Notes under the pieces: generated by a model | What the model saw: the letters and a program-made list of their open reading frames with translations, nothing else | What the model was told of the DNA's origin: nothing | Databases searched by the model: none | Translations under genes and position numbers: made by a program | Shown here: piece by piece, positions 35,218 to 62,119 of the stretch | How the letters are laid out: each line of letters opens with the position of its first letter | Numbering within the stretch: the stretch's first letter is position 1 | Assembly: GCF_003627815.1 (NCBI RefSeq) | Contig: NZ_CP032698.1 | Coordinates: 4,774,001 to 4,838,000, forward strand | Direction of reading: 5' to 3' | From: Streptomyces hundungensis | GTDB lineage: Bacteria; Actinomycetota; Actinomycetes; Streptomycetales; Streptomycetaceae | DNA: 64,000 nt

Positions 35218-35625
35218 TCAGCTGCCGTCGGCACCGTTGCCGGAGAGCACCGGGATGTCGTCCAGGATGTGCGACAGCGCCTCGTCGCGCTTGGCCTGGG
35301 TGGAGTTCTCGGTGCACTGCTGGGTCTGCGGCGAGGACAGGACCGGGATGTCCTGGACGCCGACGTTGACCAGGGCGACGATGTTCTGGATGTCCGCCTT
35401 GGCCGGCAGGCCGACACACAGCTTGTTCAGCGAGCCCTGGACCAGGGTCATCTGGGGGCTCATGTCGCCGTCGGTCTTCGAGTTGCCGAAGGCCTGCTCG
35501 GCACCGTTGCCGCTGAGCGACGTCGTACCGCTGTCGTTGCCGATGGCCATCGCCTGCGGCGCGGCCATCATCGCGACACCGGAAACGGCTGCGGCGACGG
35601 CTGCGGCCGACCACAACTTCTGCAT
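35218..35625 (-). CDS. Rodlin protein
   Basis: 135-residue secreted rodlin, the family that with chaplins makes the rodlet layer on aerial hyphae and spores. Signal peptide ends at APQAMA; the mature part begins [20 protein letters not shown] and has the family core [36 protein letters not shown] and terminal [11 protein letters not shown]. Two cysteines (LNKLC, TQQC). One of three rodlins here; closest to the one at 36893. An inverted repeat lies 73 bases upstream. Confidence 0.95.
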   Translation of the reverse strand: MQKLWSAAAVAAAVSGVAMMAAPQAMAIGNDSGTTSLSGNGAEQAFGNSKTDGDMSPQMTLVQGSLNKLCVGLPAKADIQNIVALVNVGVQDIPVLSSPQTQQCTENSTQAKRDEALSHILDDIPVLSGNGADGS

Positions 35626-35697
35626 GTCTACTCCTGTTGGTCTGATTCCACTGACGGGGATCTGTGTAGAGAAACGGTAAGAATCTCTTTTGGTTGC

Positions 35698-35718
35698 GCT
35701 CTGTCCCCCGGACAGAGC
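35698..35718. promoter_or_regulatory. 9-bp inverted repeat upstream of rodlin gene
   Basis: GCTCTGTCC-CCC-GGACAGAGC, perfect arms, between the rodlin start (35625) and the small ORF at 35786. Either an operator for the divergent pair or a short hairpin. Confidence 0.45.
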
Positions 35719-35785
35719 ATTGCGGAATCAACTCCGCCCGGACCGTGGTAATGAGGACGTGACCACGGACCGATGGTGAGGAAAC

Positions 35786-35980
35786 ATGACTGAGACGCAG
35801 GGCGCCTGGCGCCGGCAGACTTTCATCCCGATCACCCGTCGACGATTCGAGAGCGAGGCGGAAGCCGAACCCGTCTACGCGGACCTGGTGCGTTCCTGGG
35901 CCGCGGAAAGGCGTACGGTGCCGGGCCGGCCCGACTGGGAGTGGAATGCGCTTGTCAATGGTTTCCGCTGGCCGGACTGA
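35786..35980 (+). CDS. Small hypothetical protein
   Basis: 64 residues, MTETQGAWRRQTFIPITRRR with an acidic middle and W-rich end (PDWEWNALVNGFRWPD); no signal peptide or known motif. GTGAGGAAAC before the ATG is a fair ribosome site and nothing else occupies the region, so it is probably real. Divergent from the first rodlin. Its stop codon lies inside a 14-bp tandem repeat. Confidence 0.6.
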   Translation: MTETQGAWRRQTFIPITRRRFESEAEAEPVYADLVRSWAAERRTVPGRPDWEWNALVNGFRWPD

Positions 35981-36028
35981 ACTGGCCTGATTGAACTGGC
36001 CGGACTGAACTGGCCGGACTGAAAAGGC
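35975..36028. repeat. 14-bp tandem repeats over a stop codon
   Basis: Four successive units GACTGAACTGGCCT, GATTGAACTGGCCG, GACTGAACTGGCCG, GACTGAAAAGGC. The first TGA is the stop of the 64-residue ORF; each later unit repeats a TGA. Confidence 0.75.
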
Positions 36029-36062
36029 GCTTCGTCACCGCTCGGGGTGCTGGGCGCGAAAA

Positions 36063-36096
36063 GGCCGGATCGTCGGAGTGTGCCGGCGATCCGGCC
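36063..36096. terminator. Hairpin downstream of second rodlin gene
   Basis: GGCCGGATCG ... CGATCCGGCC, perfect 10-bp arms with an 14-base loop that can pair partly, ~65 bases past the rodlin stop at 36163. Confidence 0.65.
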
Positions 36097-36162
36097 AGGA
36101 CATCAGGGCGTCGGACCCCCGAAGGGATTGACAGCGGCCCGGCCGTCCTGAAATCGCTGATT

Positions 36163-36573
36163 TCAGCTGTGCGAGGCGCCGTTGCCGGAGAGGATCGGGA
36201 TGTTGCTCAGGATGTGCGACAGCGCCTCGTCGCCCTTGGCCTGGGTGGAGTTCTCGGTGCACTGCTGAGTCTGCGGCGAGGACAGGACCGGGATGTCCTG
36301 GATCCCCACGTTCACCAGGGCGAGGATGTTCTGGATGTTGGCCTTGGCCGGCAGGGCGATGCAGGGCTTGTTGAAGGAACCCTGGATCAGCGCGATCTGC
36401 GGGCTCATGTTGCCGTACGTGGCGGAGTTCCCGTACGACTGCAACGCGTTGTTGCCGCTGACCGTCGTGGTCCCGCTGTCGTTGCCGATCGCCATCGCCT
36501 GCGGCGCCATCGCCGCGGACGCGCCGATCACGGACACGCCGACGGCTGCCGCCGCCATAGCCTTCTTGATCAC
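36163..36573 (-). CDS. Rodlin protein (most divergent of three)
   Basis: 136 residues. Start GTG 36573 (VIKKAMAAAAVGVSVIGASA) follows AAAGGGACC; the frame is open upstream through non-coding sequence. Signal peptide to APQAMA, mature start IGNDSGTTTVSGNNALQSYG, core [28 protein letters not shown]. It differs from the other two in NSATYGNMSPQIALIQGSFN. Divergent from the rodlin at 36893, the classic rdlA/rdlB head-to-head layout. Confidence 0.95.
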   Translation of the reverse strand: MIKKAMAAAAVGVSVIGASAAMAPQAMAIGNDSGTTTVSGNNALQSYGNSATYGNMSPQIALIQGSFNKPCIALPAKANIQNILALVNVGIQDIPVLSSPQTQQCTENSTQAKGDEALSHILSNIPILSGNGASHS

Positions 36574-36792
36574 GCTGGTCCCTTTCTGGTGGATGCCCCA
36601 GACGGAGCCTCCTGCCCAACAGTCCAGACGGCGGATCGGTTTCTTCTCTTCACTCTTTCGGCCGTACGAAAATAGGGCCGAACACGTCTCTGCGGCTTTT
36701 TGGATTGAGATTATATGGAGATCTGACGGGAGCGTCTTCGGCGTGGTGTCCGGCATTCTTCGTCCCCCTTGAGAACCGTTCGGGTGATGTGG
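36574..36792. promoter_or_regulatory. Divergent rodlin promoter region, TATAAT on minus strand
   Basis: The 319-bp gap 36574-36892 between two rodlins is A+T-rich for this genome. On the minus strand a perfect TATAAT occupies 36715-36710, 137 bases before the GTG; AAGACG 17 bases further up is only a weak -35. If used, the message has a ~125-base leader. The plus-strand promoter is listed separately. Confidence 0.35.
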
Positions 36793-36820
36793 CGGAACCA
36801 AACCAGTTCGGCGAAGTTGA
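36793..36820 (+). promoter_or_regulatory. Sigma-BldN-like promoter for third rodlin
   Basis: CGGAAC (36793-36798), exactly 16 bases, AGTTGA (36815-36820). The BldN consensus I recall is CGTAAC-N16-CGTTGA, so one mismatch in each box. It ends 72 bases before the rodlin ATG. Confidence 0.6.
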
Positions 36821-36892: not shown

Positions 36893-37303
36893 ATGCTCAA
36901 GAAGGTTATGGCCGCGTCTGCTGCCGCCGTTTCGATTGTCGGCGCCTCCGCCATGCTGGCCCCCCAGGCCATGGCCATCGGCAACGACACCGGTACGACG
37001 TCGCTCAGCGGCAACGGCGCGAAGCAGGCCTTCGGCAACTCGAAGACCGAAGGCGACATGAGCCCGCAGCTCTCGCTGGTCCAGGGCTCCCTGAACAAGC
37101 CGTGCATCGGCCTCCCGCTCAAGGCGGACATCCAGAACATCGTCGCCCTGGTCAACGTCGGCGTCCAGGACATCCCGATCCTGTCCTCGCCGCAGACCCA
37201 GCAGTGCACCGAGAACTCCACCCAGGCCAAGCGCGACGAGGCGCTGTCGCACATCCTGGACGACATCCCGGTGCTCTCCGGCAACGGCGCCTCCGGCAGC
37301 TGA
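36893..37303 (+). CDS. Rodlin protein
   Basis: 136 residues, ATG 36893 after AAAGGGAAGACC. Signal peptide [20 protein letters not shown]...APQAMA, mature [20 protein letters not shown]; core [20 protein letters not shown] and C-terminal [14 protein letters not shown]. Very similar to the rodlin at 35218. Preceded by a BldN-like promoter and followed by a strong hairpin, so monocistronic. Confidence 0.95.
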
Positions 37304-37316
37304 GGCCCTGCCGCCG

Positions 37317-37579: not shown

Positions 37580-37813
37580 GTGAAGTACATGAAGGCTGCT
37601 ACGGTTCTGACCGGTTTTGTCCTCGCCGCGGGCGGTGCCGCCCCGGCGTTCGCCGACGCGGGCGCCCAGGGTGCCGCTGTCGGCAGCCCGGGCGTCCTGT
37701 CCGGCAACGTGGTGCAGATCCCGATCCACATCCCGGTCAACATCTGCGGCAACACCGTCAACGTCATCGGTCTGCTGAACCCCGCGTTCGGCAACACCTG
37801 CATCAACAAGTGA
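37580..37813 (+). CDS. Short chaplin
   Basis: 77-residue secreted chaplin: signal peptide to PAFA, then one chaplin domain DAGAQGAAVGSPGVLSGNVV with both conserved cysteines (NICGNTVNV, FGNTCINK). Short chaplins (ChpD-H type) self-assemble into amphipathic fibrils on the surface of aerial hyphae. Start 37580 after GGAAGGAAATCCAC. The long chaplin follows 97 bases later behind a hairpin. No clear BldN-type promoter was found in the 276-bp upstream gap. Confidence 0.95.
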   Translation: MKYMKAATVLTGFVLAAGGAAPAFADAGAQGAAVGSPGVLSGNVVQIPIHIPVNICGNTVNVIGLLNPAFGNTCINK

Positions 37814-37839: not shown

Positions 37840-37870
37840 CTTTGGGGCGTGCCCACCGCACGCCCCAAAG
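37840..37870 (+). terminator. Strong hairpin between short and long chaplin genes
   Basis: CTTTGGGGCGTGC-CCACC-GCACGCCCCAAAG: 13-bp perfect stem, 27 bases past the first chaplin stop and 41 before the TTG start of the second. It may terminate, or attenuate so that the long chaplin is made in smaller amount. Confidence 0.7.
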
Positions 37871-37910
37871 CCGGTTTCTCCCACTTTTCTCCGCGACGGA
37901 AGACAGTCCA

Positions 37911-39269
37911 TTGCGCCAGGTCATCAGTAAGACCCTGTTCACTGCCGTGGCAGCCACGAGCGTCCTTTCGATGAGCGCGAACTGTGCTCAGGCCGCCGGT
38001 GCCGATGCCGAGAGCGTGGGCTCGCCAGGTGTCCTTTCGGGGAACACGATCTCGGCACCCGTGGAAGTCCCGGTCCAGGCGTGCGGAAACTCGGTGAACC
38101 CGGTCGGAGCGCTCAACCCGTCCTTCGGGAACAACTGCGCCACGGTCTCGTCGTCCGGCGAGCGCGCGGACGACGACGCCGCATACATGGCCGACCACGC
38201 GGGCGAGGACGCCGGGCGCCCCGGGGCCCCGTCCCACGACTACGGCGACTTCTACGCGCGGGAGTACGCCGCCGCGCACGCTCCCGAGCACCATGCGGGC
38301 GGCAGCCAGGCGCACTCCGTGACCAGCGGCTCGCCGGGCGTGGTGTCCGGCAACTCCGCGGCCGCGCCGGTCGATGTGCCCGTGCAGGCGTGCGGGAACT
38401 CGGTGAGCGTGGTGGGTCTGCTCAACCCGACCTTCGGCAACCACTGCGCCACCAACCCGGCCACGCACGAGCCCCACCGCTCGGCCCCGCCCCGGCACGT
38501 CCCCCCGACGCGCCACGCGGCCCCGCCGGTCCACCACGCGGCCCCGCCGGTCCATCAGGTTCCGCCCGCACACCATGCGGCTCCGCCGGTTCACCAGGCT
38601 CCGCCCGCGCACCATGCGGCTCCGCCGGTTCACCAGGCACCGCCCGCCCACCACGCGGCCCCGCCCGCACACCACGTACCCCCGGTGCACCAGGCGCCCC
38701 CCATGCACCAGGCACCCCCGACGCATGAGGTCCCGCCGGCCCACCAGGCACCCTCGGTGCACCACGCGCCCCCCGTGCACCAGGCACCCCCGATGCACGA
38801 AGCACCCCCGACGCACGCGACGCCCCGGGTGCACGACGCACCCCCCGCGCACCACGCACACCACGCGCATCACGTGCCGCCCCACCACTGCCCGCCCGGG
38901 CACGAGGCGCACCACGCGCCTCCGGAGCGGCACCTTCCCCCGGTCCACGAGGCCCCGCCCGTGCACCACGCACCTCCGGTGCACCAGGCGCCCCCCGTGC
39001 ACCACGCACCCCCCGTGCACGCGGCGCCCCCCGTCCACCAGGCACCCCCGGTGCACCACGCACCCCCCGTGCACGACACCCCGCGGCACGCGCGGCACGC
39101 CGTTCCCGCGCGACCCGACGCCCGGGTCGTCGCGCCCGTGGCCTCGGCGCATCTCGCGGACACCGGGGCCGACCCGGCGCTCCTCGCTGCGGCCGCCGCC
39201 GGTGCTGCCGGGCTTGTGCTCGGCGGTAGCGTCCTCTACCGGCGCGGCCGGGCGATGGCCAAGGGCTGA
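37911..39269 (+). CDS. Long chaplin with two chaplin domains, His/Pro-rich spacer and LAxTG sorting signal
   Basis: 452 residues, to be anchored to the cell wall by sortase. Start is TTG 37911 (LRQVISKTLFTAVAATSVLS), after GGAAG; long chaplins of other streptomycetes begin with MRQV, and the frame's ATG-like starts further up are not protein-like. Signal peptide to about 28, chaplin domain 1 ~30-76, domain 2 ~136-180, each with two Cys (QACGNSV, FGNNC/FGNHC). Residues ~184-405 are a spacer built of PPVHQAPPAHHAAPP-like repeats with about 52 His. LADTG at 415-419, a membrane helix, then RRGRAMAKG. ChpA-C of S. coelicolor share the plan but have a much shorter spacer. Confidence 0.93.
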   Translation: MRQVISKTLFTAVAATSVLSMSANCAQAAGADAESVGSPGVLSGNTISAPVEVPVQACGNSVNPVGALNPSFGNNCATVSSSGERADDDAAYMADHAGEDAGRPGAPSHDYGDFYAREYAAAHAPEHHAGGSQAHSVTSGSPGVVSGNSAAAPVDVPVQACGNSVSVVGLLNPTFGNHCATNPATHEPHRSAPPRHVPPTRHAAPPVHHAAPPVHQVPPAHHAAPPVHQAPPAHHAAPPVHQAPPAHHAAPPAHHVPPVHQAPPMHQAPPTHEVPPAHQAPSVHHAPPVHQAPPMHEAPPTHATPRVHDAPPAHHAHHAHHVPPHHCPPGHEAHHAPPERHLPPVHEAPPVHHAPPVHQAPPVHHAPPVHAAPPVHQAPPVHHAPPVHDTPRHARHAVPARPDARVVAPVASAHLADTGADPALLAAAAAGAAGLVLGGSVLYRRGRAMAKG

Positions 39270-39545: not shown

Positions 39546-40849
39546 ATGCGTCAGCGACGTCATCGAGCGGCCACCTTCACGACCAGCGTTCTGGCGGCGG
39601 GCGCCCTCTTCAGCCTCGCGCTGGCCCCACCCCGGACGCCACGCTCCCGGGCACCCCGGACACCACGCACACGCGAACCCCGCACCCCGCGCCCGTGGGC
39701 ACCGCCGCCCCCACCCCGGACGCCACGCGTCCCGGCGGCGGTGTCGACCCCCCGCCCGCCCATCCCTCCGTCGAGACCTTCGGCGCGTTCCTCGATTCCG
39801 GTGTGCTCGGCGTCAAGCGGATCGCGGCGCTGGAGAAGTGGCTCGGCGGGGTGAACATCCGGGTCGGGCACACTTATCTGCCCGGGAACACCTGGTCCGA
39901 CATCGAGGGCAGGGCCGGGTTCCTGGACGCCTGGGCCGCCTGGCGCGGGGAGCGCACCGACCGCACCCTCGTCCTCAACGTGCCGATGCAGGCGCTCAAC
40001 GAGGCCGGCGTTCCCGACGTCCGGGTGCGCAGGCTGCTGGCCGAGGGCGCGGCGGGCCGGTTCGACGAGCACTACACGCGGCTGGCCCAGCGGCTGGTCG
40101 AGCTGAAGATTCCGGACACGGTGATCGTGCTCGGCTGGGAGATGAACGGCACCACGTACACCCACCGCTGCGGCCCGGACCCGGCGGCGTGGAAGGCGTA
40201 CTGGAGGCGGGCCGTCGCCGCCATGCGGGCGGTGCCGGGGCAGAAGTTCCGCTTCGACTTCGCGCCGAGCCGCGGCCGGGACGCGGTGCCGTGGACGGAG
40301 TGCTACCCCGGGGACGACGTCGTCGACATCATCGGCATGGACTCCTACGACCAGCCGCCGGGGCAGGATTTCGACCGGCAGATCACGGAGCCGTACGGGC
40401 TCCAGCAGCACGTGGACTTCGCGGCGGCGCACCACAAGCCCATCTCCTATCCGGAGTGGGGGCTCTTCCGCAACGGCGACAACCCCGAGTACATGCGGCG
40501 CATGCTGGCGTGGATGGACGCGCACAAGCCGGTCTACAACACCATCACCGACTACTGCCCGCACGGGGTGTGGGAGTGCGAGGACAACCCGCGCTCCTCG
40601 GAGGTCTACCGGGCGCTCCTGTACGGCCGCACCGACGCGACCGCGCAGCCGTCGACGCCGGTGAGCCCGCAGCCCTCCGTCCCGGTCGGCCCCAAGCCCA
40701 CCACCCCGCCGAGCCCGCTGCCCCCGACCCCGCCCGTCGCGCCGACGCCGCCCGGCAAGTGCGCGCCGGTCGATCTCGGGTCGTGGGCGGAGTACTGGAT
40801 CGGGGGCAAGCTGTGTCTGCGCTTCGACTGGTTCTCACGCCGGTCCTGA
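39546..40849 (+). pseudogene. GH26-like secreted glycoside hydrolase, frameshifted after the signal peptide
   Basis: ATG 39546, with AAGGGAG in front, starts a clear signal peptide (RQRRHRAATFTTSVLAAGAL, FSLALA). The catalytic domain is in a different frame (codons starting one base earlier). In that frame the linker PTPDATLPGTPDTTHTRTP is sensible from about 39626, so a one-base loss lies in the C-run near 39615-39634. The domain itself is complete: GHTYLPGNTW, LGWEMNGTTYTH (acid/base Glu), SYPEWGLFRNGD (nucleophile Glu), GMDSYDQPPG; a Pro/Thr linker and a C-terminal Cys-containing stretch follow. Broken gene, sequencing error or -1 slippage are open. Paralogue at 56947. Its end overlaps the convergent acetyltransferase gene by 15 bases. 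Confidence 0.8.
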
Positions 40850-41965
40850 GCGCTCCGGGGCTGGGCGGCGCCGTTCGTCCCGCCGGCGCCGCAGCTCGCG
40901 CCGCACGGCGCCCGCGCGGCGCCGCAGCAGGGCGTGGAGCGTGCTGGCCCACAGCAGGGGCAGGGTCCGCCGCCGAGCGAGCAGGAAGCGCTGGTTGACC
41001 ACGAGCTCGGGCCGCCAGTGCTGCTTGTACGGTTCGCTGCCGCGCAGCAGGCTCAGGGCGCCCCGCCCACTGCCCTCAAGCCGCTGGGCGTTGGTCCGCA
41101 GCAGCATCGTGGCCACGTCCACCTTGCGGTCGCGCAGCGCGGGGTGGACCCCGTAGAGGTAGGCGCCGGCGAGGGCGGGCGAGAGCACCGTCAAGTCGCA
41201 CGCCACGATCTGCCCGTCGAGCCGGAACTCGGTGACCACGGCGTCGCCGTGCCGGGTCATCTCGCTCACCGCACGCGTCAGATGCTGCTCGAAACGCGGG
41301 CGCGTGTGCTCGCGGGTCACTCCGCGGCCCTGCCACTGGAGCCCGTGGAGCGCGAGCAGGGTGCGCAGGGCCCCGGGCACGTCGTCGGCCGGCACCTCGC
41401 GCTGTTCGATGCCCAGCGCGTCGATCTTGCGGAGCTTCGCGCGGACCCGCTGGGCGCGGCTGGAGGGCAGCGCGGCGAGGATCGTGTCCATGCCGGCCGC
41501 CGGTAGTTCCATGCAGCCCGAGTCGGTCAACGTACGCCGCTTGCCGGGCCAGTTGGCGTGGATGCGTTCGGCGCCGGCGCCCGGGCGGACCTCGCCGAAG
41601 TCGATCAGGGCGGAGCGCGCCGAGCCGATCAGCACCCCGGTGAGGGCGGCGGCGGCCTCCTCGGCGCAGTCGTCGTCCAGGAGGACGTCCGTGAAGTCGG
41701 AGATGGCGCCGCCGAGCGGTACCAGCGCGGGCAGCGGGCGCCACACCCGCATCAGCGGGGCCGCGCCGACCAACTCATCGCCCCGGTACACCAGATGGAT
41801 CCGCAGCCGACCCGGTGTGCCGTACGAGAGCCACCACGAGTGGAGCCACGCGTGGCTCTGGAAGGGGGTCGCCGCCGAGCAACGACGGTGCAGCGCACGC
41901 CAGTTGGGCGCGAGGTCGGCGAAGGCGAGCTCCTCGGTGCACACCTCCACGCGGAGCCCGGACAC
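40835..41965 (-). CDS. GNAT-type acyltransferase (CelD/BcsL-like), EPS operon
   Basis: 376 residues, acetyltransferase_6/BioF2-like double GNAT fold as in cellulose-operon CelD proteins: TPFQSHAWLHSWWLSYG, ELVGAAPLMRVW, GAYLYGVHPALRDRKVDVAT. Expected to acylate a cell-envelope polysaccharide or lipid (family inference). GTG 41965 overlaps the preceding stop by one base (TAGTG). Last gene of the eight-gene EPS operon; the C-terminus is very Arg-rich. Confidence 0.88.
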   Translation of the reverse strand: MSGLRVEVCTEELAFADLAPNWRALHRRCSAATPFQSHAWLHSWWLSYGTPGRLRIHLVYRGDELVGAAPLMRVWRPLPALVPLGGAISDFTDVLLDDDCAEEAAAALTGVLIGSARSALIDFGEVRPGAGAERIHANWPGKRRTLTDSGCMELPAAGMDTILAALPSSRAQRVRAKLRKIDALGIEQREVPADDVPGALRTLLALHGLQWQGRGVTREHTRPRFEQHLTRAVSEMTRHGDAVVTEFRLDGQIVACDLTVLSPALAGAYLYGVHPALRDRKVDVATMLLRTNAQRLEGSGRGALSLLRGSEPYKQHWRPELVVNQRFLLARRRTLPLLWASTLHALLRRRAGAVRRELRRRRDERRRPAPERSGPA

Positions 41966-42636
41966 TAGCCGACCTCCTGCGGTACGCAGGCCGAGCCGGC
42001 CGGTCCCGGCACCGCGGCGACCCGCTCGGGTCCCGTGCCGGGCTCCTCGTGACGGCGCGGCCGGGCGAGCAGCGAGAGACCGCCGAGCAGCCCGCCCGCG
42101 CAGCCGCCCACCAGGGCCGTCAGCGACGCGGTGGGGGAGGAGGGGGCGACGGGTTTGGCGGCGCGCGAGAACTGCACCACGCGCACCCCGGTGTCCTTCT
42201 GGCTGTGCACGCCGTCGAGGGTGAGGGCCCGGGCCACCGCGTTGGCCATGCCCGCGGCGTCCGCGGCGCGCTCCGAGGTGGCGGTGATCGCGATCATCGG
42301 CGCGTCGGGGGAGGTCGCCGTCTGTACGCTCCGGCGCAGTGTGTCCGCGCTCACCCCCGCCCACACCTGGGCGTCCCCGATGACGGCGACCTCGGTCGCG
42401 ACCCGCCCGTAGGCCTGCGCGAAGCCGAGCGCCACCGACGGGTCGGCCTTCTCCGCGGGGGTGACCACCACATAGCTGGTCGCGCTGTACTCCGGGGTCT
42501 TCACGGCGCCGTAGACGCCGCCCGCCGTCGCGCCGAGCAGCGCGCACACGGGCAGCGGCCACCAGCGCGGCAGCCACCGGGTACGCAGCGGGCCGCGGCT
42601 GCGCTGACGCTGCCGCGAGCCGGAGATTGGGCTCAT
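41965..42636 (-). CDS. Wzz-like polysaccharide chain-length/co-polymerase protein
   Basis: 223 residues: transmembrane helix at ~28-48 (WWPLPVCALLGATAGGVYGA), an extracellular part with the Wzz-type start VKTPEYSATSYVVVTP, and a second helix at ~168-190, then a short cytoplasmic tail. It lacks the tyrosine-kinase domain of BY-kinases, so it is the membrane adaptor half only; no separate kinase gene lies in the operon. It would govern chain length or export. 4-base overlap with the glycosyltransferase gene. Confidence 0.85.
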   Translation of the reverse strand: MSPISGSRQRQRSRGPLRTRWLPRWWPLPVCALLGATAGGVYGAVKTPEYSATSYVVVTPAEKADPSVALGFAQAYGRVATEVAVIGDAQVWAGVSADTLRRSVQTATSPDAPMIAITATSERAADAAGMANAVARALTLDGVHSQKDTGVRVVQFSRAAKPVAPSSPTASLTALVGGCAGGLLGGLSLLARPRRHEEPGTGPERVAAVPGPAGSACVPQEVG

Positions 42637-43874
42637 CTGGACTCTTCTTTCTCCGAGAGGTTCGTCGGGATGTCCGTCGCGCCGGCGGGAGGGTGGCCCG
42701 CGGGGCCGGTCGCCCTCGCGTCCGGCGCCGGCCGGGCGGCGGGTCGCCGCGGGGCGCGCTCCGCCGCCGTCTCGTACACCCGGACCAGCTGGGCCGAGGT
42801 CGACGTGACGCTGTAGTGGCGCACCGCGTCGGGGACGGGCTGGCGCAGGCGGCGGCCCGAGCGCTGGAGTTCGCCCAGGGCGTCGGCGAACGCGGCGGCC
42901 GTGCGGCCGGTGCGCAGCGCGCCGGGCGCCGAGCCGGGCGGCAGGTCGTCGATGGCCGGGCAGGTCACGTACGCCACCGGGAGCCCGGCCGCGAGGCCCT
43001 CCACGACGGCCAGGCCGAAGGACTCCTCACCGGACGGCGAGGCCAGACAGTCCACCGCGCACAGCAGCCCGGCCAGGGTGGGGCGGTGGCCCGCCGGGGC
43101 CGTGCCGTCCTGGACGCACTCGCCCACGAACACCACCCGGTCGGCCAGGCCGAGCCGGTCGGCGCGGGCCCGCAGGGGCTGTTCCTGTTCCCCGGTTCCG
43201 GCCAACACCAGCATCGCGTGCGGGAGTTCGGCCAGTGCGTCGATCAGGGTGTGGAAGCGTTTGCCCGCCGTGAGGCGGCCGACCCCGCCGATGACGAACG
43301 CCCGTGGCGGGAGCCCGAGGGTGCGGCGTACTTTCTCGCGCGTACGGGGGTCGAAGGCGAACCGTGCCGCGTCGATGCCGTTCGGCACCACCTGGACGCG
43401 GTGCTCGGGGACGCCCCAGTCGGTCAGCCTGCGCGCGATGGTGTCGGAGACCGCGACGGTGGTGGTGCCGAGCCGTTCGCTCGCCAGATACAGGCCGCGT
43501 ACGGCGGGACCGAGCCGGCGGCCCTCCATGCGGGTCTCGCCCAGGGAGTGTTCGGTGGCGACGATGGTGCGCACCCGGGCGAGCTTCGCCGCGAGGCGAC
43601 CGTACAGACAGGCCCGGTACAGATGGGTGTGGACCAGGTCGTAGTGGCCCTGGGCGATGAGCCGGGTGAGCCGGGGGAGCGCGGACAGGTCGCGGTTGCC
43701 CGCCATGTCCAGGTTCCGCACCCGGCCGCCCTCGCGGACGATGGCGCGGGCCACGGCGCCCGGGTTGGTGAGGGTGACCACGTCGGCCTCGTAGGGCAAG
43801 TGCCGCAACAGCAGCCGTAGTTGCTGCTCGGCGCCGCCGATGCCGAGGCCGGTGATGACGTGCAGGACCTTCAT
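42633..43874 (-). CDS. GT4-family glycosyltransferase, EPS operon
   Basis: 413 residues, GT-B fold: MKVLHVITGLGIGGAEQQLR at the N-terminus, HTHLYRACLYGRLAA, VVPNGIDAARF and the C-terminal nucleotide-sugar site SPSGEESFGLAVVEGLAAGL. Cytoplasmic; adds a sugar to the lipid-linked repeat unit. The last ~45 residues are Ala/Pro/Arg-rich tail. ATGA overlap with the deacetylase gene. Confidence 0.92.
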   Translation of the reverse strand: MKVLHVITGLGIGGAEQQLRLLLRHLPYEADVVTLTNPGAVARAIVREGGRVRNLDMAGNRDLSALPRLTRLIAQGHYDLVHTHLYRACLYGRLAAKLARVRTIVATEHSLGETRMEGRRLGPAVRGLYLASERLGTTTVAVSDTIARRLTDWGVPEHRVQVVPNGIDAARFAFDPRTREKVRRTLGLPPRAFVIGGVGRLTAGKRFHTLIDALAELPHAMLVLAGTGEQEQPLRARADRLGLADRVVFVGECVQDGTAPAGHRPTLAGLLCAVDCLASPSGEESFGLAVVEGLAAGLPVAYVTCPAIDDLPPGSAPGALRTGRTAAAFADALGELQRSGRRLRQPVPDAVRHYSVTSTSAQLVRVYETAAERAPRRPAARPAPDARATGPAGHPPAGATDIPTNLSEKEESR

Positions 43875-47593: not shown

Positions 47594-47595
47594 GC

Positions 47596-52374: not shown

Positions 52375-52686
52375 ATGATGAAGTCGATGAAGGTAGCCGC
52401 GGCGGTCGCCGGTTCCCTCGCGGTGATGGGCGCGGCGGCCCCGGCCTTCGCCGCCGGAGGTACGCCTCCCATGCCCCCCATGAGCCTCAACGGCGGCCTC
52501 GACTCGCTGACCAACGCGGCGTCCCACGCCCAGTTGGCCGACGCGGCGCCCGTCAACACCAGCGCGCTCGACCCCAAGTCGGACGGCTCGGTGCTGCACG
52601 CGGTGACCAGTGCCGCCCACGACCTCAACAAGTCCCACGGCGGGTCCGGCTCCGGCCGGATGCTCGGCGGACTGCCGATCGGCTGA
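52375..52686 (+). CDS. Small secreted protein
   Basis: 103 residues, ATG 52375 close behind GGAAGG. Signal peptide MKVAAAVAGSLAVMGAAAPAFA; mature part has no cysteine (SLNGGLDSLTNAASHAQLAD, ALDPKSDGSVLHAVTSAAHD, NKSHGGSGSGRMLGGLPIG). No family recognised. The sequence right after its stop looks like the tail of a chaplin gene, which suggests this gene arose or moved next to a chaplin remnant. Confidence 0.75.
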   Translation: MMKSMKVAAAVAGSLAVMGAAAPAFAAGGTPPMPPMSLNGGLDSLTNAASHAQLADAAPVNTSALDPKSDGSVLHAVTSAAHDLNKSHGGSGSGRMLGGLPIG

Positions 52687-53534: not shown

Positions 53535-54185
53535 ATGCCCTTCCACGGGACGCTCCAGGAGCCGGCTCCGCTCACCGACTCGTCCGGACCCCCGCCACCG
53601 CCCAGCACCGCCTTCGGCGCCGGCCGCGGCTTCGCCCGGCTGGTCGTGCTCACCGGCGCGGCCGGCCTGCTGGCCTCCTGGGTCATCACCCTGGACGAGT
53701 TCGAGCTCCTGCGTAATCCGGACTTCGTCCCGGGGTGCAGCCTCAACCCGGTGATCTCCTGCGGCACCATCATGAAGAGCGCGCAGGCGTCCGTCTTCGG
53801 GTTCCCCAATCCGATGCTGGGCCTGGTGGCGTACGGGATCGTGTGCTGTGTGGGGATGAGCCTGCTCGGGGGCGGCCGGTTCGGGCGCTGGTACTGGCTG
53901 GCGCTCAACGCGGGGGCCGCCTTCGGCGTCGTCTTCGTCGGCTGGCTCCAGTTCGAGTCGCTGTACCGCATCAACGCGCTGTGCCTGTGGTGCTGTCTGG
54001 CGTGGGTCGCCACCATCGTGCTGTTCTGGCGGGTCACCCACCTCAACGTGATCAACGGAGCGCTGCCCGCGCCGGGTTGGGCGCGAGAGCTGTCCGCCGA
54101 GTTCGGCTGGGCGGTGCCGGTGGTGCACATCGGGGTCGTCGCGATGCTGATCCTGACCCGCTGGTGGGACTTCTGGACGCGGTGA
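53535..54185 (+). CDS. Vitamin K epoxide reductase (VKOR) family protein
   Basis: 216 residues with 4-5 membrane helices. The loop pair CSLNPVISCGTIMKSAQASV and the active-site CLWC (in NALCLWCCLAW) match bacterial VKORs, which re-oxidise DsbA-like partners with menaquinone and so drive disulfide formation outside the membrane. Chaplins, rodlins and the hydrolases here carry paired cysteines, so it may serve their folding (inference). No DsbA gene is in the window. Confidence 0.92.
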   Translation: MPFHGTLQEPAPLTDSSGPPPPPSTAFGAGRGFARLVVLTGAAGLLASWVITLDEFELLRNPDFVPGCSLNPVISCGTIMKSAQASVFGFPNPMLGLVAYGIVCCVGMSLLGGGRFGRWYWLALNAGAAFGVVFVGWLQFESLYRINALCLWCCLAWVATIVLFWRVTHLNVINGALPAPGWARELSAEFGWAVPVVHIGVVAMLILTRWWDFWTR

Positions 54186-54369: not shown

Positions 54370-54540
54370 CGCCGACGGCGCCGCGAGCGTACGGCGGCCG
54401 TTTCCTGCGCCCGGGGGCCTCGTTGTACCCGGCATCGGTCAAGGAGAGCGGACGCTCGGCGGGCCCCGGAACCTGGACGGTTTGCGGGGCCCACGCATGT
54501 GCCGGACTCGTCCGCGCGAGCGAGCACGAGGGAGACGCCC

Positions 54541-55068
54541 ATGAACGACGCGCCACACTTCTGGAGCGCACGCCGCACCGGCCGCACCCGCCTGCGCAGC
54601 CGCGCCCCCGAACCCACCGGGCCCGGCGCGCCCCCGCCCCGTACCGCCTGGCGCACCGCCCGACGCGGCCTGCTGCGCGCCCTGTTCGCCTCGGCGGCCG
54701 TCGCCTTCACCGGCGCCGCGCTCTCCCGCATCCCCTCCGCCGCGCCGGCCGGTGCCACGGGCCCCGGGCCCACCGCGCGTGTTCCCGAGAGCATGCTCTT
54801 CGACGAGATGCACGCCGGGCACCGCATCCAGGGCCGGGCCCTCCAGGCGGACGGGTCCGAGGTCGCCGTGTTCGTGGACGACCGCCGGCTCATGCTGATG
54901 CGCCGCGCCGACGGCACCTATCTGAGCGCCGTCGACCACTACGAGTCCTACGCCACCGCACGCGAGGCCGCCCGCGCCGCCGCGGCCGAGCTGGGCCGCG
55001 CCCGGCTGGCCGCCGTGCCCGTGCACGCGGGCCACGAAGGGGGAGCCGTCCGTGGTGTACACGCGTAA
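54541..55068 (+). CDS. melC1: Tyrosinase cofactor / copper chaperone MelC1
   Basis: 175 residues. MelC1 delivers copper to and escorts export of the tyrosinase MelC2. ATG 54541 after GAGGGAG (MNDAPHFWSARR). Twin-arginine motif TARRGLLRALF precedes the hydrophobic stretch, in line with Tat export of the MelC1-MelC2 complex. The C-terminal region has the family's MHAGHRIQGR, VDDRRLMLMRRADGTYLSAV and HYESYATAREAARAA. Overlaps melC2 by 17 bases. Confidence 0.94.
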   Translation: MNDAPHFWSARRTGRTRLRSRAPEPTGPGAPPPRTAWRTARRGLLRALFASAAVAFTGAALSRIPSAAPAGATGPGPTARVPESMLFDEMHAGHRIQGRALQADGSEVAVFVDDRRLMLMRRADGTYLSAVDHYESYATAREAARAAAAELGRARLAAVPVHAGHEGGAVRGVHA

Positions 55069-55921
55069 GAACCAGCGGAACCTGACGAGCGCCGAGCGCA
55101 AGGCGTTCGTCAACGCCGTGCTCGAACTCAAACGGCGTGGCACATACGACGCGTTCGCGCGCACCCACATCGACTTCTACGTCTCCGACGGCGACCGCGG
55201 GCTGCGCGTGGCGCACATGGCGCCGTCCTTCCTGCCCTGGCACCGCCGGTTCCTGCTGGAGTTCGAGCGGGCGCTCCAGAAGGTCGACCCGCGCGTCACC
55301 GTGCCGTACTGGGACTGGACGCGCGACAGTTCGGCCGCCTCGTCCCTGTGGGGCGACGACTTCATGGGCGGCAACGGACGCCGGGGTGATCTCCAGGTCA
55401 TGACCGGCCCCTTCGCGCACGCCCACGGCCACTGGGACATCACCGTCAACGTCACCGACGAACGCTTCCTCACGCGGGACCTGGGCCGCCCCAAGAACCC
55501 CATCAAACTGCCCACCGCCGCCGATGTCGCCCAGGCGCTCGCCGACCCGGTGTACGACGTCTCCCCCTGGAACTCGATGAGCGGGACCGGGTTCCGCAAC
55601 AAGCTGGAGGGCTGGACCAAGGCGTCGGGCGACGCCCGCTTCCGTACGCACAACCAGGTCCACCGCTGGATCGGCGGGATCATGCTCGGCGGCGCCGCCG
55701 TCAACGATCCCGTGTTCTGGCTGCACCACGCCTTCGTCGACAGCCTGTGGTCACGCTGGCAGGCCGCCCACCCGAAGTCCAAGCGCTATCTGCCGGACGT
55801 CCCGCCGCCGCTGGGCGACCTCCAGCACGGCCGGGTGGCGGCGCTCCACGACCCGATGCCGCCGTGGAACGTGGCGCCTGCGGCGCTCTTGGACCACAGC
55901 CGGATCTACCGGTACGCCTGA
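55052..55921 (+). CDS. melC2: Tyrosinase MelC2
   Basis: 289-residue type 3 copper enzyme making melanin from tyrosine via DOPA. Copper A ligands in RTHIDFY, AHMAPSFLPWHRRFLLEFE; copper B in THNQVHRW and VFWLHHAFVDSLW. No signal peptide: exported together with MelC1. GTG 55052 (VVYTRKNQRNLTSAERKAF) after GAAGGGGGAG; GTG 55055 is as likely. Full length for the streptomycete family. Confidence 0.96.
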   Translation: MVYTRKNQRNLTSAERKAFVNAVLELKRRGTYDAFARTHIDFYVSDGDRGLRVAHMAPSFLPWHRRFLLEFERALQKVDPRVTVPYWDWTRDSSAASSLWGDDFMGGNGRRGDLQVMTGPFAHAHGHWDITVNVTDERFLTRDLGRPKNPIKLPTAADVAQALADPVYDVSPWNSMSGTGFRNKLEGWTKASGDARFRTHNQVHRWIGGIMLGGAAVNDPVFWLHHAFVDSLWSRWQAAHPKSKRYLPDVPPPLGDLQHGRVAALHDPMPPWNVAPAALLDHSRIYRYA

Positions 55922-56028: not shown

Positions 56029-56304
56029 TCAGCCCCCGTAGCCGCCGTGGTGGTGGAGCAGGTGGGAGTCGTTGACGCAGGTGTTGCCGAACACCGGGTT
56101 CAGCAGGCCGATGACGTCAACGGTGTTGCCGCAGAGGTTGACCGGGATGTGCACCGGCACCTGCACCAGGTTCCCCGAGAGGACGCCGGGGGAGTTGGAC
56201 GCGACAGCCTCGGCGCCGGCGTCGGCAGCGGCCATACCCGCACCGGCCAGTGCCATGGCGCCCGCTCCGGCGACGACGGCGGCCGTCTTCGCGATACGAG
56301 ACAT
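56029..56304 (-). CDS. Short chaplin with His-rich tail
   Basis: 91 residues, ATG 56304 (MSRIAKTAAVVAGAGAMALA) after AAGGAGAACTTTG. One chaplin domain with both Cys (NLCGNTVDVI, FGNTCVND), then an added tail SHLLHHHGGYGG not found in the other two short chaplins here. BldN-like promoter upstream. Convergent with melC2. Confidence 0.95.
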   Translation of the reverse strand: MSRIAKTAAVVAGAGAMALAGAGMAAADAGAEAVASNSPGVLSGNLVQVPVHIPVNLCGNTVDVIGLLNPVFGNTCVNDSHLLHHHGGYGG

Positions 56305-56358
56305 CAAAGTTCTCCTTGATTGGACACGCGACCGCAGACACGCAGTCGTCATGTCACT

Positions 56359-56454: not shown

Positions 56455-56784
56455 TCACTCCTCGCCGTACCTCCCGCGTGAGGAGCGCCGGGACAGGGCG
56501 ACCGCCGCCGCCCCCGTGACGACCGCGCCCACGCTCAGGGCGCCGAGCAGCGTGGCGTTGGCGTCGGCGCCGGTGTCCGCCAGGGTCGGCGGAGCCGCGC
56601 CGGGGCGCACTGGGGCGCCGCCGGGCGCGTGCGGGGCCGTGTGCGGCGCTGTGTGGGGCGCGGAGGCGGGCGGCGGGGCCGCGCCGGGACGGTCGGTGGC
56701 GTGCGCCGCGTACCCGGTGCCCAGCGCGGACACCAGGCCCGTGACGAGGGCGGCCCGCGCCGCGGAACCTGAGAGCTTGTACAT
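56455..56784 (-). CDS. Small LAxTG sortase-substrate protein without chaplin domain
   Basis: 109 residues: signal peptide (SAARAALVTGLVSALGTGYAA), a short spacer with APHTAPHTAPHAPGGAP, sorting motif LADTGADAN, a membrane helix and RRSSRGRYGEE. The sorting segment shares LADTGAD and layout with the long chaplin at 37911, but no chaplin domain is present. Either a wall-anchored small protein in its own right or a reduced long chaplin. ATG 56784. Confidence 0.82.
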   Translation of the reverse strand: MYKLSGSAARAALVTGLVSALGTGYAAHATDRPGAAPPPASAPHTAPHTAPHAPGGAPVRPGAAPPTLADTGADANATLLGALSVGAVVTGAAAVALSRRSSRGRYGEE

Positions 56785-56946: not shown

Positions 56947-57951
56947 TCACCGCGCCCGGTAGGCGTGCGCCGCCTCGGGGTGGTCGGGGCACTCCCAGAC
57001 GCCGTGCGGGCAGTAGTCGGTCAGGGTCTGGTAGACGGGCCGGTAGCGGCGGAACCAGGCCGTCATCCCGCGCACGTACGGCGCGTCGTCCCCGTTGCGG
57101 AAGAGTCCCCACTCCGGGTACGACACCGGCTTGCCGTGCCGGGCGGCGAAGTCGACCTGGGCGCGCAGTCCGTACGGCTCCTCGACCTGCTCGCGGAAGG
57201 ACATGCCGGCGGGCTGGTCGTAGGAGTCCATGCCGACGATGTCGACGAAGGCGTCCCCGGGATAGCACTCGGTCCACGCCACCGCGTCGCGCCCGCGGTT
57301 CGGCGCGAAGTCGAAGCGGAAGTGCTGCCCCGCCACCGAGCGCATCGCGGTGACCACGCGCCGCCAGTACGCCCGCCAGGAGGCCGGATCGGGAGCGCAG
57401 CGGTGCGTATAGGTGACGCCGTTCATCTCCCACCCGAGGACGACGTTGGTGTCGGCGAGCCGGAGGGCGACCAGGCGCTCGGCCAGCGCGGTGAAGTGGC
57501 CGTCGAAGGCGCCGCGCGCGCCCTGTCCGAGCAGGCCGCGCACCTCGGCGTCGGGCAGGCCGGCCTCGTTGGGGGCCAGCATCGGCACGTTGAGGACGAA
57601 GACCCGGTCGGTGCGCTCGTGGCGCCAGCGGGCCCAGGGCGCGAGGAGCCGGGGCGGGCCCTCGATGCCGCTCCAGGTGTCGCCCGGCAGATAGGTGTGG
57701 CCGGCCCGCAGCCGCCCCTGGCCGCGCCACTTCTCGACCGCAGCCAGCTTGACGATGCCGTCCCCGTCGGACCCGGTGAAGACGCCCGCCGCCGTCCTGG
57801 CCCCGGTCGGCATCGGGCCGCGCGTCCGGTCGCCCGGCGGCTGGACCAGCGCGGAGAGGAGCAGCACGAGCGCGCACAGCGCGGCCTTCCACGAGGACGC
57901 GGCGTTCGACGCCCGACGGCGTCCGGGGCCGGTCCCGCTCGCCCGGCGCAC
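56947..57951 (-). CDS. GH26-like secreted/anchored glycoside hydrolase
   Basis: 334 residues; GTG 57951, signal-anchor ALCALVLLLSALVQPP, then a domain closely matching the hydrolase at 39546: GHTYLPGDTWSGIEG, LGWEMNGVTYTHRC (acid/base Glu), RFDFAPNRGRDAV, GMDSYDQPAG, SYPEWGLFRNGDD (nucleophile Glu). Related GH26 enzymes cut beta-mannans and similar glucans. Here the frame is intact and there is no C-terminal Pro-rich extension. It starts 8 bases after the 75-residue secreted protein's stop, so likely co-transcribed with it. Confidence 0.88.
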   Translation of the reverse strand: MRRASGTGPGRRRASNAASSWKAALCALVLLLSALVQPPGDRTRGPMPTGARTAAGVFTGSDGDGIVKLAAVEKWRGQGRLRAGHTYLPGDTWSGIEGPPRLLAPWARWRHERTDRVFVLNVPMLAPNEAGLPDAEVRGLLGQGARGAFDGHFTALAERLVALRLADTNVVLGWEMNGVTYTHRCAPDPASWRAYWRRVVTAMRSVAGQHFRFDFAPNRGRDAVAWTECYPGDAFVDIVGMDSYDQPAGMSFREQVEEPYGLRAQVDFAARHGKPVSYPEWGLFRNGDDAPYVRGMTAWFRRYRPVYQTLTDYCPHGVWECPDHPEAAHAYRAR

Positions 57952-60547: not shown

Positions 60548-60625
60548 GCCGAGCGCCCGCCCGGGGCGCCGTGCCCGCACCCTGGGGACGGCCCCAACTC
60601 GCCCCGCTCTCCCAGGAGTTGACCC

Positions 60626-61243
60626 ATGTCCCGTCCGTCGGGGAACGTCCCTGCCACCTTGCGGCTCGCCGGGGCCGTCGCGGCGCTGCTCGCCGTCACC
60701 GCCCTCACGGCCCAGGGCGCGACGGCGGCGGCGCCCGGCCGCCCCGATCCGCACCCGGTGGGTGAGGGCGCGCCGCCGTGGCCCGCGCCCGCCGACCCGG
60801 CCGCGGCGGCCAAATCGGCGGGCCTTGAGATGCTGTCCGCCGAGGGCATGGTCCAGCACACCCACACCCATCTGGACGTCCTCGTCGACGGCCGGCCCGT
60901 CACCGTCCCCGCCTCGATCGGCATCGACGCGCCGCACCGGCTCATCAGCCCCCTGCACACCCACGACACCAGCGGGGTGATCCACGTCGAGTCGCCGAAG
61001 CGGGCGGACTTCACACTGGGCCAGTTCATGACCGAGTGGGGCGTCCCGCTGAGCGCCGACCGCATCGGCGGCCTGCACGCGGTCGGCGGGCGCCATCTGA
61101 AGGCGTACGTCAACGGGCGCGCGGTCGCCGGGAACCCCGCGGCGATCGTGCTGCGCGAACGCGACGAGATCGCGCTCGTCCTCACCCGGGACACCGACAC
61201 CCACCCGGTGCCCGCGAGCTACGCCTGGCCGAACGGTCTGTAG
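60626..61243 (+). CDS. Secreted protein with His-rich HTHTHLDV motif
   Basis: 205 residues. Signal peptide LRLAGAVAALLAVTALTAQG; then a compact domain with HTHTHLDVLVDGRPVTVPAS, ISPLHTHDTSGVIHVESP and FTLGQFMTEWGV, a pattern I have seen in unnamed bacterial extracellular domains, some near thioredoxin/VKOR genes. The His clusters suggest metal binding. ATG 60626 is in the right place for the signal peptide. Confidence 0.78.
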   Translation: MSRPSGNVPATLRLAGAVAALLAVTALTAQGATAAAPGRPDPHPVGEGAPPWPAPADPAAAAKSAGLEMLSAEGMVQHTHTHLDVLVDGRPVTVPASIGIDAPHRLISPLHTHDTSGVIHVESPKRADFTLGQFMTEWGVPLSADRIGGLHAVGGRHLKAYVNGRAVAGNPAAIVLRERDEIALVLTRDTDTHPVPASYAWPNGL

Positions 61244-61393
61244 GGCTCGGCACAGGGCGTACGGCACCGAGTCACTGACGTCGTCACCGGCGCGCACGGG
61301 GGCACCGGTGGCCGGACGGAACGTCTCCCCGCACGGCTGCTCGTCGGGCCGTGCGGACACAGGATCCGTGTCGCGGCGCGGACAGCACGCCGG

Positions 61394-61434
61394 CAGCTCC
61401 TGTCCGGGGATCTACTCCCCCCGGACAGGAGCTG
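61394..61434. terminator. Strong hairpin downstream of His-rich protein gene
   Basis: CAGCTCCTGTCCGGGG and its exact complement, 16-bp arms with a short loop, in the 285-bp gap 61244-61528; 150 bases after the preceding stop. Confidence 0.6.
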
Positions 61435-61528
61435 CTGCCATGTGCGGCGGGGGCCAGGGCCGGGTACGCCCGTGGGGTGAGAGCGGGTGGCGGCCGTGTC
61501 CTTGGCCGCCACTCCCCGTTGTGCAGGC

Positions 61529-61822
61529 GTGATCTCAACACGACGCATCGCCACTGTCCTCGCCGTCGCCGCCGGTGTCTCGGGCCTCGCCGTCTCCTCG
61601 GCGAACGCGGCGGGCCCCCTCGACCACGTGGGCAAGCCGTTGAACCCGATCAGCGAGCTCGACAACCTCGCCGCCAGCGGCATCCCCGCCCAGTACGCGG
61701 CCCAGCTCCCCGGCGTCAAGCAGCAGCTCGCCGGTCTCAACCACCTCAACGACCTCAGCCAGCTGCACCAGGTGATCGACCCGGTCCAGCCGCTCCTGGG
61801 CCTCCTGCCCGTGACGGGCTGA
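61529..61822 (+). CDS. Small secreted protein
   Basis: 97 residues from GTG 61529 (VISTRRIATVLAVAAGVSGL). Signal peptide to ANAA, mature GPLDHVGKPLNPISELDNLA ... DPVQPLLGLLPVTG. No cysteine, no known family. The frame opens at 61487 but the signal peptide fits the later start. Confidence 0.72.
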   Translation: MISTRRIATVLAVAAGVSGLAVSSANAAGPLDHVGKPLNPISELDNLAASGIPAQYAAQLPGVKQQLAGLNHLNDLSQLHQVIDPVQPLLGLLPVTG

Positions 61823-61846
61823 CCCGAGGCGACCCGGGACGCAACA

Positions 61847-61888
61847 CGGGCGCGCGCCCGGAACCCAGTGGTTCCGGGCGCGCGCCCG
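61847..61888. terminator. Bidirectional terminator, 19-bp perfect stem
   Basis: CGGGCGCGCGCCCGGAACC-CAGT-GGTTCCGGGCGCGCGCCCG, between convergent stops at 61822 and 61910. Confidence 0.85.
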
Positions 61889-61909
61889 CTCGGTGTCGCG
61901 GTTCCTCGC

Positions 61910-62119
61910 TCAGAGGAGGATCAGCAGCAGGCTCGTCAGCAGGCCGTAGTGGCGGTGGCGGTTCGAGTCGTTGTTGCCGTGGTCGTCGCCGTAACCGTAG
62001 TTACCGTGGGCCACGACGCGCACAGCGGACTGCGGGGCGGCCTGGGCGGTCGCGGTGGTGGGGACGATCACGGCGGCGGAGAGCGCGGCCACAACGGCGG
62101 CGCGGCGGATGAGGCTCAC
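61910..62119 (-). CDS. Small secreted His/Asn/Gly-rich protein
   Basis: 69 residues from GTG 62119 (VSLIRRAAVVAALSAAVIVP), since GGAG lies 6 bases before it; ATG 62131 is in frame but unsupported. Mature part VVAHGNYGYGDDHGNNDSNR with HRHY, ending in a Leu-rich hydrophobic tail (YGLLTSLLLILL). No family recognised. Confidence 0.72.
   Translation of the reverse strand: MSLIRRAAVVAALSAAVIVPTTATAQAAPQSAVRVVAHGNYGYGDDHGNNDSNRHRHYGLLTSLLLILL

Follow-up and report, generated by a model that had tools for sequence, protein, structure and literature searches.

The window considered here is a stretch of 64,000 nucleotides (positions 4774001-4838000) of the single-contig, 8.39 Mb chromosome of Streptomyces hundungensis (NZ_CP032698.1), and our subject is a surface-gene locus that spans positions 35218-62131 of this window. 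In it, an operon of eight polysaccharide genes (40835-50240, minus strand) is set among three rodlins, four chaplin genes, melC1-melC2, a VKOR gene and two GH26-like genes; a P450 gene (58246-59526), a DUF5949 gene and six small proteins whose N-termini look signal-like by eye also belong to the locus. An earlier note on this DNA had listed such a surface-gene content, which was confirmed at the positions it gave, and had proposed that a dedicated Wzx/Wzy polysaccharide and the coat proteins are parts of one sheath made from one locus. As described below, the tight unit is the operon together with a GH26 hydrolase, and the neighbourhood around it is real, old and non-random.

The polysaccharide operon

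All eight genes of the operon overlap or abut start to stop and are translationally coupled.

49077..50240, minus: gt1, GT4-type glycosyltransferase, first operon gene here, overlapping the next start (PF13692/PF13439)
47596..49080, minus: pgt, polyprenyl-phosphate sugar-phosphate transferase, predicted to start the repeat unit (PF02397, 203.8 bits)
46259..47593, minus: wzy, polymerase/ligase-type membrane protein with 11 transmembrane (TM)-like segments (PF04932, 64.3 bits, cut-off 31.7)
44646..46262, minus: flippase of the MurJ family (PF03023)
43871..44656, minus: pda, CE4/NodB-type N-deacetylase with no signal or TM segment (PF01522, 91.3 bits)
42633..43874, minus: gt2, GT4-type glycosyltransferase (PF13439/PF13692)
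41965..42636, minus: Wzz-like chain-length protein (PF02706, 23.1 bits, just under the cut-off of 25.5)
40835..41965, minus: gnat, GNAT acyltransferase (Acetyltransf_6), last operon gene (PF13480, 79.8 bits)

The pgt product, with four TM-like segments, matches TIGR03025 at 326.8 bits (cut-off 295.6) and qualifies as an initiating polyprenyl-phosphate sugar transferase of the Wzx/Wzy-dependent pathway. A Wzy-type polymerase is likewise indicated by the PF04932 match, a family that also holds ligases. The eight genes and the Wzy-type protein of the earlier note have stood; its Wzx has not, as the flippase falls in the MurJ family, all six of its solved-structure matches are MurJ, and the Wzx-type family PF01943 reaches 18.9 bits, below its cut-off of 28.2. 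Among the three MurJ-family proteins of the genome this flippase scores lowest (185.6-186.6 vs 399.7 and 316.6 bits), and it is therefore read as dedicated to the operon. With a MurJ-type flippase in place of Wzx, the operon resembles the Wzx/Wzy pathway in its working but is not counted as belonging to it in the strict sense. In pda, the metal-binding Asp-His-His and the catalytic Asp of CE4 (NodB) enzymes are present, and residues D88, D89, H152 and H156, which we take to serve metal binding and catalysis as in other CE4 deacetylases, are invariant in 91/91 sequences. No kinase domain was found in the Wzz-like protein, and the XrtA exosortase exopolysaccharide families TIGR03088, TIGR03097, TIGR03006 and TIGR03013 scored far under their cut-offs, the exosortase itself not having been searched.

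Against NCBIfam, the Wzy-like protein scores best with a putative O-glycosylation ligase from the exosortase system (53.8 bits, under the cut-off of 188.1), and both sortase-signal proteins reported by the earlier note lie nearby, with LADTG in 37842-39269 and 56455-56784. These two points would suit an O-oligosaccharyl ligase, which would attach the lipid-linked unit to the wall or to proteins that are secreted or anchored by sortase, with no polymerisation. We consider this very improbable, since the Wzz-like gene in the operon, though below its cut-off, and the accompanying secreted GH26 suit a polymer.

GH26 hydrolases and their co-inheritance with the operon

Two hydrolase genes of the locus carry a GH26-like domain.

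39695..40849, plus: gh26a, GH26-like domain, convergent with the operon (PF02156, 25.5 bits, cut-off 20.2)
56947..57951, minus: gh26b, second GH26-like hydrolase, its N-terminal segment hydrophobic and signal-like (PF02156, 29.7 bits)

The gh26b product is 66% identical to the gh26a domain and has one TM-like segment at residue 17. Residues E113 (in WEMNG) and E218 (in PEWG), presumably the two catalytic glutamates by the GH26 motif, are invariant in 32/32 sequences, and the GH26 fold assignment held. A GH26 profile search of PDB sequences covered only part of the domain, mostly residues ~124-230. Both genes had been named in the earlier note, to which a correction applies: in this strain the reading frame of gh26a looks broken, with an open reading frame (ORF) for the signal peptide at 39546-39854 and the GH26 domain at 39803-40849 in different frames. 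In relatives such as locus L013 both parts share one frame, and the break here is either a sequencing error or the mark of a broken copy.

In a draw of 61 Streptomyces genomes, where operon presence was defined as a flippase match at E 1e-30, the flippase was found in 43 genomes, chaplins in 61, GH26 in 44 and rodlins in 44. Flippase and GH26 agree in 58/61 genomes, 42 with both and 16 with neither (Fisher p 1.2e-11). The three exceptions are G045, G010, which lacks the flippase and keeps five other operon genes and GH26, and G030, with a weak GH26 match (39%). The G010 locus (L157, G010:C2:2934700-2954600) matched gt1, pgt, pda, gt2, gnat and GH26, and flippase, Wzy and Wzz were not matched at the threshold used.

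Rodlins show no such association, being present in 29/43 genomes with the flippase and in 15/18 without (Fisher p 0.35), so that the operon does not always occur together with the coat-protein genes. An obligatory joint function of operon and coat proteins is not supported by these counts, chaplins occurring in 61/61 genomes vs the flippase in 43/61. According to excerpts of PMC4255298, several chaplins occur in all streptomycetes and rodlins are readily lost. By our reading of positions, the 29 genomes with both flippase and rodlin divide into 18 in which the two are linked within ~25 kb, 7 in which they lie apart (sharing a contig in 3 and not in 4; 7/25 of the decidable cases) and 4 that are undecidable on broken assemblies.

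Twelve rodlin loci of flippase-free genomes were fetched. Four of them (L161-L164) carry a block of rodlin, chaplin, small secreted protein and DUF5949 genes without the operon; L165 and L166 have rodlins with a chaplin, L167 has rodlins with VKOR, small secreted and DUF5949 genes, and L168-L172 have rodlins and no chaplin in the fetched stretch. In L164 (G034:C26:100000-119900) a lone gt1-like piece lies between chaplins, as if left by a deletion. Weak matches to gh26a (37-51%) were seen near the rodlins of L169 (14222), L170 (50) and L172 (14874); they perhaps reflect just the Pro-rich tail of gh26a, and no GH26 was found there at E 1e-15.

Linkage to coat-protein and tyrosinase genes in Streptomyces

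The coat-protein and other neighbour genes of the window are the following.

35218..35625, minus: rodlin 1, 82% identical to rodlin 3
36163..36573, minus: rodlin 2, 75% identical to rodlin 3
36893..37303, plus: rodlin 3 (NCBIfam rodlin_AB NF041022, 226.3 bits)
37580..37813, plus: short chaplin (PF03777, 103.8 bits)
37842..39269, plus: long chaplin ORF, start codon uncertain, with two chaplin domains (PF03777), His/Ala/Pro repeats and a LADTG sortase signal
50897..51136, plus: complete short chaplin of 79 aa, divergent from the operon (PF03777, 100.8 bits)
51292..52185, plus: Ala/Pro-rich protein with signal-like N-terminus, from sequence (no Pfam match at E 0.1)
52375..52686, plus: small secreted protein, often beside chaplin or rodlin genes (tblastn, 55/80 loci)
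52998..53498, plus: DUF5949 protein (PF19374, 233 bits)
53535..54185, plus: VKOR-family membrane oxidoreductase (PF07884)
54499..55068, plus: melC1, tyrosinase co-factor (PF06236, 77.2 bits)
55052..55921, plus: melC2, tyrosinase (PF00264, 152.3 bits)
56029..56352, minus: short chaplin adjoining melC2 (PF03777, 98 bits)
56455..56784, minus: small protein with LADTG sortase signal (sortase motif; chaplin pattern not seen)

The three rodlins, melC1-melC2 and the VKOR are as the earlier note had them, and six small secreted-type proteins answer to its six or more. Its four chaplin genes are also present, with five domains among them, and its separate chaplin remnant was not found, 50897-51136 being a complete chaplin. 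A protein like the small secreted one at 52375-52686 occurs in the operon-free loci L161-L164 as well. A second tyrosinase gene was seen elsewhere in genome G000 (G000:C1:7449675-7450277, L009).

Conservation of this neighbourhood was followed in two sets of Streptomyces loci whose flanks reach 4 kb or more to either side of the operon. A GTDB genome scan with the flippase, from which the 80 best loci were kept and which is hence not a random sample, gave 61 such loci, all of which have the eight core genes and GH26; 56 of them have a chaplin, 40 a rodlin and 36 melC2. In an even draw across the class, the flippase was found in 25/28 Streptomyces rows among the matches listed; 22 of these 25 were fetched and 5 were dropped for short flanks, and in the remaining 17 loci the eight core genes and GH26 each occur in 16, a chaplin in 15, a rodlin in 7 and melC2 in 5. 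A chaplin as close as this would be expected at ~2.4% of random positions, a rough estimate from 9.0 domains per genome, against the 15/17 evenly drawn and 56/61 best-match loci observed, although these loci are kin by descent and the counts are not independent. Chance assembly in one strain is ruled out by the recurrence of the neighbourhood across Streptomyces loci.

A quick tree of 91 loci was built from flippase, deacetylase and gt2 combined, with the Shimodaira-Hasegawa-like approximate likelihood ratio test (SH-aLRT) as its only support measure; it includes 7 of the 11 flippase-bearing loci among thirteen genus-draw stretches that had been chosen as odd cases. The 86 Streptomyces loci lie on one side of a branch with SH-aLRT 100. 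Linkage to a chaplin is found in 77/86 of them and requires 4 changes on the operon tree, so the operon does not stand at an unrelated site in Streptomyces relatives. Rodlin linkage (50/86) and melC2 linkage (45/86) each require 18 changes. Hence the chaplin linkage is old and stable, and the rodlin and melC linkages come and go; the fetched flanks are unequal, many reaching ~4-6 kb past the operon, so that rodlin and melC linkage are undercounted, and the strict sequence pattern used for chaplins may have missed some. The tree tool warned of long branches for L059 and the window clade. Indeed, the operon of the window and those of its close relatives L011 and L012 sit on a branch of 0.53 changes per column, which marks the module of this strain as unusually diverged.

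Plain frozen synteny of the core region is weakened as an explanation by the distance between the flippase and citA, which is smallest in the window (17.6 kb) and reaches 4.3 Mb, with a median of 834 kb, in 20 genomes having both on one contig. In some clades melC, a chaplin and the P450 lie on the opposite side of the operon. In another clade (L067, L074, L088, L090, L152-L154) the neighbours of the operon include GH26, melC, a chaplin and a P450 resembling that at 58246-59526.

It could be argued that operon and coat genes met once in a permissive surface-gene region and that their linkage, inherited by descent, has no functional meaning. Linkage across the Streptomyces operon clade, with absences that fit four losses, agrees with this, as does the missing presence/absence association with rodlins; however, melC, chaplin, P450 and GH26 have changed places around the operon and yet stayed close to it, and the citA distance varies widely. 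We regard such a passive inheritance as improbable.

A promoter motif of the coat-protein genes

The pattern AACC-N16-GTTGA was found as a pair of enriched short words before rodlin and chaplin genes and, in the whole 64-kb window, occurs just twice on both strands.

36796..36820, plus: AACC-N16-GTTGA, 97 nt before rodlin 3 (motif scan)
50795..50819, plus: AACC-N16-GTTGA, 102 nt before chaplin 50897 (motif scan)

The motif resembles, as we take it, the sigma-BldN promoter of bldM. PMC4125116 counts chaplins and rodlins among the targets of BldN. Across loci, AACC-N16-GTTG precedes 50/85 rodlins and 40/204 chaplin upstreams, sets that contain several genes per locus; the motif having been derived from these upstreams themselves, the operon counts alone are an independent test. 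Before gt1 it was found in 0/102 (about 0.7 expected from shuffles). In many Streptomyces a secreted DUF3344-like gene (21.4 bits, under its cut-off) precedes gt1, as in L016, L022, L076 and L145 and in 50/86 tree loci in all, with no match in the window. Because this gene comes first in the operon of many relatives, the scan was repeated before it, and AACC-N16-GTTG in the operon direction was again absent (0/57). Joint control by the chaplin/rodlin motif is thus not borne out.

A related pattern, CAAC-N17-GTTG, which is its own reverse complement, does occur before the upstream secreted gene in 34/57 loci. On the other strand of those 34 sites, AACC-N16-GTTG is read in 29, with the final A in 16, and a chaplin domain follows 206-240 nt further on in 33/34. 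It was hence counted as the promoter of the divergent chaplin and rejected as a shared operon promoter, with two-way firing toward the operon a possibility. A looser AAC-N17-GTTG lies within 500 nt before gt1 in 11/102 (shuffled mean 0.75), sites that we take to be this same symmetric element without one-by-one checking. A word-pair search for a promoter of the operon's own gave no clear pair. The absence of the motif argues against one regulon of the operon with chaplins and rodlins.

The operon outside Streptomyces

In a draw across the family, the flippase was found in 37/61 genomes and 6/17 genera; four genera besides Streptomyces, here labelled g173, g169, g177 and g180, supplied twenty loci. 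In g173, chaplins, rodlins and melC surround the operon in 5/5 loci. In g169, g177 and g180, 15 loci showed no chaplin, rodlin or melC within stretches of ~20 kb (10.5 kb in one), an absence that holds for these stretches alone, chaplins elsewhere in the genomes not having been searched; the eight genes stand in the same order in 14/15 (L195 is cut by its contig), and GH26 is present in 11/15. In a more distant family, f17, the flippase occurs in 6/80 genomes and chaplin-like domains in 61/80; five fetched operon loci gave no chaplin and no DUF3344-like matches, and gt1 stands after gnat. Across these three genera and f17, 20 operon loci lack chaplin, rodlin and melC in the sampled stretch. 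These occurrences without chaplins nearby indicate that the module is older than, or at least independent of, the chaplin neighbourhood.

They also bear on the idea of a dedicated protein-polysaccharide sheath. Here the whole locus would be one functional unit, and its polymer would serve on aerial hyphae as the scaffold that carries chaplin amyloid and rodlins or the anchor that holds them. The four changes in chaplin linkage over the 86 loci, its persistence despite a citA distance of up to 4.3 Mb and altered neighbour order, and the linkage to chaplins and rodlins in all five g173 loci are what such a sheath would lead one to expect. Yet Streptomyces without the flippase have chaplins in all cases and rodlins in 15/18, the chaplin/rodlin motif is absent before the operon, g169, g177, g180 and f17 have the operon without chaplins nearby, and L161-L163 hold the rodlin-chaplin-DUF5949 block without the operon, L164 with the gt1-like piece only. 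We consider this sheath unlikely, if worth keeping in mind. Polysaccharide, chaplins and rodlins as one system are unsupported by co-occurrence, promoter and wider phylogeny, and their union is possible as an elaboration of the Streptomyces lineage.

A plausible scenario for the module

The reading that we find rather probable is that the operon is an autonomous, holdfast-like, partly de-N-acetylated surface glycan module with its own depolymerase, which joined the coat-protein neighbourhood early and is separately controlled. The observations behind it are the gene content, near-fixed order and coupling of the eight genes, the conserved catalytic motifs, and the co-inheritance of operon and GH26. 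In such a module the pgt product would charge undecaprenyl phosphate with the first sugar, which both GT4 enzymes would extend; an N-acetyl group would be taken off by the cytoplasmic deacetylase, and the amine thus exposed may receive another acyl group from the GNAT enzyme, a pair of steps also proposed for HfsH and HfsK in the Caulobacter holdfast. The lipid-linked unit would then be turned outward by the MurJ-type flippase and polymerised by Wzy under the Wzz-like protein, and the secreted GH26 would cut the polymer, trimming it or freeing hyphae or spores. Early in the Streptomyces lineage this module would have become linked to chaplin, rodlin and tyrosinase genes. The linkage has been kept since, probably owing to a common site of action, the outer surface of the hypha, with control separate and neither side needing the other.

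Several points weigh against this scenario. Chaplin linkage across the genus, with its 4 changes, exceeds what independence predicts, and the absence of one motif does not exclude co-expression from another or a two-way promoter. With its apparently broken frame, the hydrolase adjoining the operon may be inactive here, the frame of gh26b being open; GH26 was not seen in 1/17 evenly drawn Streptomyces loci nor in 4/15 loci of g169, g177 and g180, one of them cut by its contig. Moreover, the Wzz-like match to PF02706 is below cut-off, and sugar chemistry, expression or mutant data on the operon genes were not found in the literature searched.

A tentative and rather doubtful extension is that, in most Streptomyces, a further kind of hyphal glycan, built from lipid-linked repeat units and partly de-N-acetylated, serves as base layer for chaplin and rodlin assembly, with GH26 releasing aerial hyphae or spores. 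If this were true, the hydrophobic sheath would be a glycan-protein composite from one ancestral locus of the Streptomyces lineage, and the module would do another surface job in the sister genera. Chaplins and rodlins are textbook matter of Streptomyces development, and the locus bears on what besides protein coats the hypha and what anchors the amyloid sheath. The near-strict co-inheritance of operon and GH26 offers a likely matched pair of synthase and depolymerase, which would make the polymer experimentally accessible.

Comparison with known systems

In S. coelicolor, locus tags place ten genes between chpF (SCO2705) and chpA (SCO2716) (PMC5826349), and by synteny these would be the same genes as those here. 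SCO2706-SCO2711 are named in no paper text searched (open-licence papers, main texts without supplements), none of SCO2712-SCO2714 is among the matches listed in the literature search, and literature on chaplins with polysaccharide, Wzy or glycosyl showed no title on this operon among the matches listed. Two transcriptome papers on S. coelicolor, whose main texts show selected genes, name chpF and rdlA there with chpA and chpD and none of SCO2706-SCO2715. A polysaccharide operon at the locus goes unmentioned in the excerpts of PMC4255298, PMC3937824, PMC10090380, PMC9640686, PMC5650626 and PMC9205884. The eight-gene set is apparently little studied.

Among known Streptomyces systems, the CslA/GlxA and MatAB glycans are, from partial texts, hyphal surface glycans as the operon product would be. 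They are made by synthase-type systems and not by lipid-linked repeat-unit systems. The Ebosin (ste) cluster of Streptomyces sp. 139 is likewise a Streptomyces exopolysaccharide cluster, but in the available part of its description it has 27 ste genes with regulators and nucleotide-sugar synthesis (PMC11078827). Compared by description only, it was rejected as the same operon, its S. coelicolor counterpart being another locus, SCO0381-SCO0401 (excerpt of PMC4398421).

The Caulobacter holdfast genes HfsE, HfsH and HfsK share with the operon a deacetylase and a GNAT acyltransferase thought to modify the exopolysaccharide precursor, the likeness to HfsK being one of description; they differ in Gram-negative export and anchoring, and GH26 is not mentioned in the portion of the source at hand (PMC5362036). 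In profile searches pda reached 41.0 bits against the HfsH family NF050820 and pgt 153.8 bits against the HfsE family NF050817, both far under the cut-offs.

The working analogy comes from clusters of Actinoplanes missouriensis, in the passages available on them. Like the locus, wps-1 has a GH26 gene, and like the operon, wps-3 combines GT4, a deacetylase and a BioF2-like acyltransferase with Wzx, Wzy and Wzz; in these clusters, compared by description only, the GH26 and the deacetylase/acyltransferase features are split between the two, wps-1 comes with sulfotransferases, and the wps flippases are assigned to a polysaccharide-transport type, not MurJ (PMC13390465). In the same organism the sporangium matrix, made by the imp cluster beside gimB, is digested by GimA and GimB, according to the excerpted text. 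GimA and GimB are GH5 enzymes with a galactose-binding-like domain, and the imp cluster has four glycosyltransferases and three membrane proteins, with no deacetylase named and no chaplin or rodlin neighbours described there. It nevertheless shares with the operon a flippase/polymerase-type cluster with an adjoining secreted glycoside hydrolase gene, and with the locus two hydrolase paralogues and a place in the surface or spore matrix of an actinomycete (PMC12691653).

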